64,000 nucleotides of DNA from Flavobacteriales bacterium (GTDB taxonomy: Bacteria; Bacteroidota; Bacteroidia; Flavobacteriales_D; Crocinitomicaceae): contig CANFJL010000005.1 of the NCBI GenBank assembly GCA_947447525.1, forward strand, positions 1 through 64,000. Reading direction: 5' to 3'. A program made the translations under genes and the position numbers. The notes beneath the pieces were generated by a model. The model had not been told where the DNA came from. It saw nothing but the letters and a program-made list of their open reading frames with translations, and searched no databases. Positions 366 to 62,437 of the stretch are shown here, in pieces; the stretch's first letter is position 1, and each line of letters opens with the position of its first letter.

Positions 366-390
366 TTTCGACTACGCTCAACCCACTTTT
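366..390 (+). repeat. REP-like element, copy 1
   Basis: The 25-base stretch containing 'TTTCGACTACGCTCAA' recurs in inverted orientation at 1410-1434 with 23 of 25 bases identical. A shorter related copy, 'CTCGACTACGCTCGATGAG', lies at 1295-1313. Short 'CGACTACGCTCA' words of this sort are typical of extragenic palindromic-type repeats in Bacteroidota; that family assignment is from memory, while the repetition is seen directly. Confidence 0.6.
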
Positions 391-409: not shown

Positions 410-500
410 AACAGAGTTAGAGTTGGACTTGGAGGTTGGACGTAGAGGTTAGAGATAGAGTTGGACATAGAGGTTAGAGGTTAGACTTGGAATTGGAGCG
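410..500. repeat. Hexamer-like GTTAGA/TAGAG degenerate tandem repeat, left cluster A
   Basis: About 90 bases made of variants of 'GAGTTAGAGTTGGACTTGGA', 'GGTTAGAGATAGAG' and 'GGTTAGACTTGGA'. This is a degenerate tandem repeat with a 6/7-base sub-period. The reverse complement resembles the 19-bp array at 62159-62437. Confidence 0.7.
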
Positions 501-560
501 AGGTCCTTACTTTATTTTGTATACGACAACCCGTTGTTTTGTAAATAATAACATTCTATT

Positions 561-622
561 TTTAGACCTTGCAATAGGAGGTTTTTCAAACCCATTGAAT
601 TTGGTATATGCTAAGACTAGCT
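561..622 (+). repeat. 62-bp direct repeat, copy 1
   Basis: A 62-base block beginning 'TTTAGACCTTGCAATAGG' and ending 'ATGCTAAGACTAGCT' is identical to 823-884. It contains a small hairpin, GGTTT-TTC-AAACC. Upstream flanks of both copies are also similar ('TTTTGTAA..TAATAAC' versus 'TTTTGTAATTAGTAAC'), so the duplicated unit is longer but degenerate at its left side. Confidence 0.85.
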
Positions 623-630
623 TGTTCTCT

Positions 631-655
631 CTACTTTTTTTCCGCAAAAAAGTAG
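631..655. repeat. A/T-stem inverted repeat, hairpin 1
   Basis: CTACTTTTTT (631-640), loop TCCGC, AAAAAAGTAG (646-655): a perfect 10-bp stem with a 5-base loop. The same design recurs at 1008-1034. It looks like a dispersed palindrome rather than a gene's terminator, because no gene ends just upstream. Confidence 0.7.
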
Positions 656-822
656 CAAAAAGCTCGGTGCTGGTTTTTGTAATCGGCGTTCCACTTTTGA
701 AAGCCGACCTTCTCAGCGAGCTTGCAGCTTCTTCATGGTACCCGACTTTCAATACGCTATTCTTGATTAAAAAAAAATGCACCAACTTAAAAGAAAAAGT
801 TTTGTAATTAGTAACCTACTAA

Positions 823-884
823 TTTAGACCTTGCAATAGGAGGTTTTTCAAACCCATTGAATTTGGTATATGCTAAGACTAGCT
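823..884 (+). repeat. 62-bp direct repeat, copy 2
   Basis: Identical to 561-622 over 62 bases. After the end of the repeat the two copies diverge: copy 1 continues into hairpin 1, copy 2 into the 'TCGCTAGCATCC' repeat. Confidence 0.85.
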
Positions 885-894
885 GAAAGCTCAG

Positions 895-982
895 TCGCTA
901 GCATCCAAATTTGAAGGGGATTAAAAATACTTCGAACTTTCTCAGGAATGAGTTAATTATAGGTGCGTCGAAGTAAAGCGCA
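895..982 (+). repeat. 'TCGCTAGCATCC' direct repeat, copy 1
   Basis: Starts 'TCGCTAGCATCCAAATTTG', continues 'GGGGATTAAAAATACTTCGAAC' (split here), and ends 'GTCGAAGTAAAGCGCAT'. A near copy lies at 1049-1137. The two ends are better conserved than the middle. Confidence 0.75.
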
Positions 983-1007
983 TTGATAAGTCAGCTCCTT
1001 TTTTTGT

Positions 1008-1034
1008 TACTTTTTTTTGAGATAAAAAAAAGTA
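1008..1034. repeat. A/T-stem inverted repeat, hairpin 2
   Basis: TACTTTTTTTT (1008-1018), loop GAGAT, AAAAAAAAGTA (1024-1034): a perfect 11-bp stem. It sits between the two copies of the 'TCGCTAGCATCC' repeat. It has the same architecture as hairpin 1 with a different loop, so the stem rather than the loop is the conserved part. Confidence 0.7.
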
Positions 1035-1048
1035 AAGAAATAGATCAA

Positions 1049-1137
1049 TCGCTAGCATCCAAATTTGGTGGGGATTAAAAATACTTCGAACCTACTCAGA
1101 GTTTAGAAGATTGCATGTTCGTCGAAGTAAAGCGCAT
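1049..1137 (+). repeat. 'TCGCTAGCATCC' direct repeat, copy 2
   Basis: Second copy of the element at 895-982, with the same start and the same 'GTCGAAGTAAAGCGCAT' end. The motif 'GCGCATCTCGACTAC' at its right border occurs again at 1289-1303. Confidence 0.75.
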
Positions 1138-1182
1138 CTCGACTACTAAAATAGAGTTACCCTTCGATGAGCTCAGGGCGAG

Positions 1183-1285
1183 AAGGTTAGACTTGGAGGT
1201 TAGAGTTTAGACATAGAGCTTAGAGCGCATCTCTAAAACTGAAACAGAGTTGGACTTGGACTTAGAGGTTGGAGATAGAGGTTCG
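1183..1285. repeat. Hexamer-like GTTAGA/TAGAG degenerate tandem repeat, left cluster B
   Basis: Contains 'TTAGACTTGGAGGTTAGAG', 'TTTAGACATAGAGCTTAGAG' and 'GGACTTAGAGGTTGGAGATA'. The first of these matches the reverse complement of the 19-bp unit at 62159 at 17 of 19 positions, so it is the same repeat family. Confidence 0.7.
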
Positions 1286-1409
1286 ATAGCGCATCTCGAC
1301 TACGCTCGATGAGCTTTCAGAAGTGGATTGAACTGCTTGTGCTGAGCTTGTACTCCCCAGAGCATATCGAAGGGCCGAAGTAAGTCGAAAGACACTGTGT
1401 TGAGCTCTA

Positions 1410-1434
1410 AAAAGTGGATTGAGCGGAGTCGAAA
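1410..1434 (-). repeat. REP-like element, inverted copy
   Basis: Inverted copy (23/25 identical) of 366-390, reading 'GTGGATTGAGCGGAGTCGAA' on the plus strand. Related words, 'AGAAGTGGATTGAAC' at about 1319 and 'AAGTAAGTCGAAA' at about 1378 and 1454, surround it. Confidence 0.6.
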
Positions 1435-62022: not shown

Positions 62023-62095
62023 GGTGCCTTAGCTCAGTTGGTAGAGCAAAGGACTGAAAATCCTTGTGTCCCTGGTTCGATTCCTGGAGGCACCA
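62023..62095 (+). tRNA. tRNA-Phe (GAA)
   Basis: A 73-nt cloverleaf: acceptor GGTGCCT/AGGCACC with discriminator A, D-arm 'TAGCTCAGTTGGTAGAGCA', anticodon stem GGACT/AATCC-type with loop CTGAAAA giving anticodon GAA, and T-arm 'CCTGGTTCGATTCCTGG'. The CCA tail is not encoded; the genome has 'CAAAA' after the discriminator, as is common in Bacteroidota, so CCA must be added enzymatically. Confidence 0.97.
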
Positions 62096-62099
62096 CAAA

Positions 62100-62151: not shown

Positions 62152-62437
62152 TCTCTATCTCTAAACTCTAGGTCTAACTCTAAACTCTAAGTCTAACTCT
62201 AAACTCTAAGTCTAGCTCTAAACTCTAGGTCTAACTCTAAACTCTAGGTCTAACTCTAAACTCTAAGTCTAACTCTAAACTCTAGGTCTAACTCTAAACT
62301 CTAAACTCTAAACTCTAAGTCTAGCTCTAAACTCTATCTCTAAGTCTAACGCTAAACTCTATCTCTAAGTCTAACGCTAAACTCTAAGTCTATCTCTAAA
62401 CTCTATCTCTAAACTATAGGTCTAACTCTAAACTCTA
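62152..62437. repeat. 19-bp tandem repeat array (CTCTAAACTCTARGTCTAR)
   Basis: From 62159 seven consecutive 19-bp units (62159-62291) of the form CTCTAAACTCTARGTCTAR (R = A or G) are nearly perfect; variation is limited to the two R positions. After that the array decays into hexamer variants (TCTAAA, TCTAAG, TCTATC, TCTAAC, CGCTAAA) to about 62437. The reverse complement resembles the repeats at 410-500 and 1183-1285. There are no spacers, so it is not a CRISPR. It has an internal 6/7-base period. Confidence 0.9.

Follow-up and report, generated by a model that had tools for sequence, protein, structure and literature searches.

A dispersed, degenerate 6/7-bp tandem repeat family in intergenic islands of a Crocinitomicaceae genome, probably a young minisatellite

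In Xanthomonas, tandem arrays of GGGAATC are dispersed between genes on both strands, show no preference for the leading or lagging strand, and often stand as facing pairs (Rehm et al. 2015, PMC4692102). TAACTGA heptamer repeats have been described from the Beggiatoaceae, cyanobacteria and some Bacteroidetes, with a patchy distribution across several phyla (MacGregor 2015, PMC4679880). As summarized in those two papers, Mrazek et al. (2007) found heptamers to be over-represented among the long simple sequence repeats of bacteria and proposed that they suit polymerase slippage. BIME, REP and REPIN sequences (PMC2817692, PMC3116915) form mosaics of short dispersed modules between genes.

Here we describe arrays of the unit TTRGAG(N) in a Flavobacteriales genome, starting from a window of 64 kb. 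Like the GGGAATC arrays, they are short tandem arrays, dispersed and mostly intergenic, lying on both strands without leading or lagging preference; they include facing pairs able to form stem-loops, and their length varies between relatives (PMC4692102). Whereas the Xanthomonas unit forms G-quadruplexes and its sites are mostly conserved, our arrays have no G-runs, mix units of 6 and 7 bp, are embedded in mosaic repeat islands, and often differ in site from those of a sister genome. With the TAACTGA repeats, which have a patchy, strain-specific distribution, they share the form of intergenic heptamer tandem arrays (PMC4679880), but the sequence differs, and many TAACTGA repeats lie in forward orientation immediately before start codons, an arrangement that our arrays do not show. 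A period of about 7 and a proposed slippage origin recall the long simple sequence repeats as the later papers portray them, from which our arrays are set apart by their degeneracy and their higher-order periods. The mosaic of dispersed modules resembles that of BIME, REP and REPIN sequences, but here no cognate transposase is linked, and neither palindromic nor inverted ends, of the kind that mark REPIN/RAYT systems and MITEs, were found on the window arrays. In unit size, number of loci, absence of strand preference and length variation the arrays agree with dispersed intergenic repeats of 6-9 bp, and the family joins an already known class of dispersed heptamer arrays.

The initial annotation had placed one repeat family at both ends of the window in opposite orientation, and our search confirmed this. 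Taking the sign of an array as the strand that reads GTTAGAG, the left end carries array 1 at 413..498 (+; 91 bits; TRF rows 418-475 and 435-491; starting GAAACAGAGTTAGAG), array 2 at 1184..1225 (+; 46 bits; TRF 1187-1225) and array 3 at 1246..1286 (+; 44 bits; starting GAAACAGAGTTGGAC). Near the right end, array 4 occupies 62153..62437 (-; 299 bits; TRF 62154-62437, 14.9 copies), directly downstream of tRNA-Phe(gaa) (62023..62096, +) and that gene's own terminator-like hairpin. Scores are from a cyclic 6/7-mer profile, for which six 64-kb first-order Markov sequences gave best values of 15.7-19.8 bits. The window opens contig C5 at base 1 and covers its first 64 kb, so the left arrays sit at an assembly edge. 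What had been read as a single stretch at 1183-1285 is two arrays with 20 bp of other sequence between them. We reproduced the reported best match of 17 of 19 positions to the 62-kb array for each of two left-end stretches; for 300 pieces of 100 bp taken at random from the window, the best 19-base match was 10-14, save for one of 15 and one of 16.

The basic unit is a degenerate hexamer or heptamer whose optional seventh base is mostly G, with 109 unit steps of 6 bp and 65 of 7 bp. Because 6- and 7-mers mix, periods of 13 bp (6+7) arise at many loci and one of 19 bp (6+6+7) in the 62-kb array. The left edge of the arrays is stereotyped and the right edge is not: by inspection, about 27 of the 35 arrays in the genome begin in an A-run of the form AAA[ACT]AGAG, across different flank classes, and all 12 exact AAAAYAGAGTTAGA sites in the genome lie at array starts. 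Several arrays have leaders in common, such as CCTTGCCCNCAAAAYAGAG, GGTCACAAAACAGAG and GAAACAGAGTTGGACTTGG. In the five longest arrays, ordinary and variant together, 77-87% of 16-mers recur within the same array, a mark of local homogenisation. A variant array, built of 13-bp units (GCTAGACATAGAG / GACAGACATAGAG) at L034:3240-3457 (C3:153739-153956), faces an ordinary TTRGAG array, and none of its 16-mers was found in arrays at other loci.

Across the host genome (2.66 Mb in 22 contigs), the core pattern TTAGAGN{0,1}TTRGAG has 78 matches, against 2 for the reversed control. Our profile scan, which covered the stretches around these matches and may miss weak arrays elsewhere, called 35 arrays at 19 mapped loci on 9 contigs, 2,770 bp in total. 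Their scores of 24-573 bits, against a null maximum of 20, place these tandem units of 6-9 bp beyond chance. Nearly all of the arrays are intergenic; the only exception is a small one that overlaps a doubtful ORF of 219 bp. These counts support the earlier proposal of a genome-wide dispersed family in place of two local events. Its corollary, that local slippage is not at work, was too strong: array lengths differ in the sister genome, which indicates that the dispersed copies are also subject to local slippage or unequal exchange.

The region between the left arrays of the window, 536-1144, is itself a dispersed repeat. It holds a first copy of module A (536..622, +; 59-bp core AGACCTTGCAATAGGAGG) and the 137-bp module B (626..762, +) with its CTACTTTTTTTCCGCAAAAAAGTAG hairpin, both with dispersed copies in the genome, followed at 799..1144 (+) by a second copy of module A and the repeated module C (888-983 and 1042-1137), which have related copies in six congeners. 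Short dispersed repeats lie on either side, TGAGCGTAGTCGAAA at 366..380 (-; 10 copies genome-wide against 0 in the control) and TGAGCGGAGTCGAAA at 1420..1434 (+). At seven loci, the left end of the window included, arrays share their intergenic space with modules A, B and C and with TGAGCGNAGTCGAAA, a repeat for which our literature search found no report; in six of these seven module-bearing islands the array stands ahead of module A in the same orientation (by inspection). The other loci, about 12 of 19, have no module nearby. Modules A-C were found also in G021 (the sister), G039, G044, G048, G049 and G006, and several islands lie at orthologous sites in the sister. Seven genomes of the genus contributed 23 copies to an alignment in which a module core some 240 bp long (within window 536-1144) is well conserved; only some of the copies contain a 13-bp hairpin insertion, CGAGGCGTCGGTA or CGACGCTTCGGTA. 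Several contig ends fall at islands, namely the start of C5, the end of C7, the end of C13 and the start of C17, and in the sister assembly the neighbours of C7 and C13 are joined through an island of this kind.

The array family is most likely a young, lineage-specific expansion. Each of 60 congeners yielded 0-4 matches to a longer array pattern, roughly as many as the reversed control gives, and the core pattern has 5 matches in the sister and 0-4 in the next five relatives. Flanks are 92-98% identical to those of the sister, and the arrays between them differ. The array downstream of tRNA-Phe measures 285 bp here, whereas its counterpart in the sister (L250) has about 40 bp, and that at C11:6.9 kb has 137 bp here against 28 in the sister alignment; the array at C6:99.97 kb is absent from the sister, and that at C6:68.7 kb is replaced there by other modules. 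These comparisons are with an assembly that is 89% complete in about 100 contigs, in which some long arrays may be collapsed or missing. In the window, to the left of an aminotransferase gene (1518-2705), the direct repeat AGCGCATCTCGACTAC stands on either side of arrays 2 and 3 (1131..1146 and 1288..1303, both +). The sister has a single AGCGCATCTCGACT and no array at this site, that is, one copy of the bounding repeat and no counterpart of the 157-bp segment 1147-1303, a difference that fits either gain here or loss in the sister.

The end of tRNA-Phe bears other sequences in three further relatives. L252 (G049), L253 (G039) and L255 (G048) each have one or more partial 3' copies of the tRNA (GATTCCTGGAGGTACCAC) downstream of it, every copy preceded by a GC-rich palindrome such as CTGTCCGCCTAGGCGGAC, and in L252 and L253 a small ORF lies between, GIY-YIG-like by eye. 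The partial copies look like the product of repeated insertion at the tRNA end.

Among the matches listed by a scan of all bacteria, nearly all are pure arrays of the heptamer NTTRGAG, and they come from many phyla; the motif class is thus common, which does not imply that the matches are related. Viral contigs held 33 stretches for the TTRGAG-type unit and 9, 4 and 53 for three scrambled units; as the third of these falls partly within the heptamer class itself, we claim no enrichment there. Searching the literature for the letters of the repeat turned up only unrelated virus-typing papers. In Chloroflexi contigs (L080, L100, L112, L113 and L194), runs of the heptamer TTRGAGA have inverted copies close behind (CAATCTCCAATCTCTAATCTC), so that an unrelated phylum also has heptamer arrays that face each other.

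It had been suggested that these repeats might be oriented motifs of chromosome architecture or replication, their orientation perhaps following the direction of replication; this reading is largely refuted and we give it next to no credence. As a proxy for replication direction we used GC skew at third codon positions, averaged over genes of both strands so that coding effects cancel. The skew has the same sign at 1-16 kb (0.092) and at 48-64 kb (0.098), which puts both window ends on one replichore, yet their arrays are opposite. By locus, 7 agree with the skew and 7 disagree, counting the 14 loci whose arrays all point one way and whose skew is clear (above 0.04 in absolute value, with segments pooled within 35 kb, both values of our choosing). 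Three loci hold both orientations (C3:153.7-154.8, C6:17.9-18.25 and C11:6.85-7.04 kb), and congeners nearly lack the arrays. A raw 20-kb GC skew did place the G-strand of 27 of 35 arrays on the skewed strand, but arrays within one locus are not independent, and this apparent bias is gone when loci are counted and the averaged third-position skew is used. The genome therefore shows copies without strand bias, the very outcome that the initial annotation had named as evidence against its proposal.

The suggested role in stopping transcription was not supported either. Such a role, in transcription ending or RNA stability, would be played by hairpins of facing arrays or by C-rich, unstructured RNA that loads Rho. 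In its favour, the arrays are nearly all intergenic, a transcript of the C-strand is C-rich and G-poor, and the facing arrays at C11:6.85-7.04 kb, between convergent genes, fold far better than shuffles (z -7.3). Against it, folding of the window arrays does not surpass that of shuffles (z 0.26 and 0.70), so that they lack the hairpin of an intrinsic terminator, tRNA-Phe has its own hairpin before array 4, and facing arrays occur at only 3 of 19 loci, with another pair, at C3, not significant (z -1.2). In a hand tally of the loci at which an array is read from a single flanking gene or from the tRNA, the C-strand is read 5 times and the G-strand 5 times, and array sites differ in the sister. 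We considered both Rho-loading and terminator roles, found neither supported, and regard a transcriptional function as improbable. Neither replication nor transcription is detectably reflected in the orientation of the arrays.

A stronger contender, though still an unlikely one, is that the arrays are one terminus of a small mobile element, non-autonomous and composed of the array with modules A, B and C, whose enzyme acts in trans, as RAYTs do for REPINs. The order and orientation of array and module A common to most module-bearing islands, the stereotyped left edges, and the presence or absence between sisters of a 157-bp array segment bounded by 16-bp direct repeats are what such an element might leave, and the genome has one IS200-like Y1 transposase gene. 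The direct repeats at 1131 and 1288 bound the segment as a target-site duplication might, but they belong to common island sequence, and the segment may have been gained here or lost in the sister. Neither a constant right end nor a target duplication is common to all copies. Most array loci lack a module, and most of the module-bearing islands have the same position in the sister, so no recent composite jump is seen. The lone transposase gene, the only one with PF01797 in the genome (C14:44900), has no array or island repeats beside it. The tandem palindromes ahead of it, of type TATTGAGCTTGCTTTTAAGCAAGC, are unlike the island repeats (C14:44200-45400, L339). A bolder form, which we hold to be improbable, is a composite non-autonomous element with the A-rich left end AAAAYAGAGTTAGAG, spread by an unknown enzyme and amplifying its own 6/7-bp tail; if this is true, the arrays would be the sign of a new class of mobile minisatellite in bacteria.

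We believe that the arrays are most likely a young, lineage-specific degenerate minisatellite, driven by slippage and recombination, within mosaic intergenic repeat islands. The sister length differences suggest that replication slippage or unequal recombination makes arrays longer or shorter where they stand. Since flank classes and companion modules are shared, we infer that on several occasions an array would also have been carried to a new island together with its flanks, through duplication or ectopic recombination between repeat modules. Facing arrays could form hairpins as a by-product. Slippage would then be the molecular step and recombination the spreading step of a nearly neutral process, and the window copies are probably without sequence-specific function. 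Two features count against the minisatellite interpretation. The recurrent A-rich left edge is not explained by plain slippage and could mark a defined end, and the order of array before module A in most islands means that at least part of the spread was as a composite unit and might be element-driven; on these two grounds a mobile composite element keeps some plausibility.

The family offers a clean example of a degenerate 6/7-bp minisatellite spreading in one bacterial lineage while nearly all sampled congeners are without it, and its sites in sister species display length change, gain or loss, and replacement. The arrays and their islands explain some of the contig breaks in the assembly, and the case is a warning that orientation signals should not be read from two copies.
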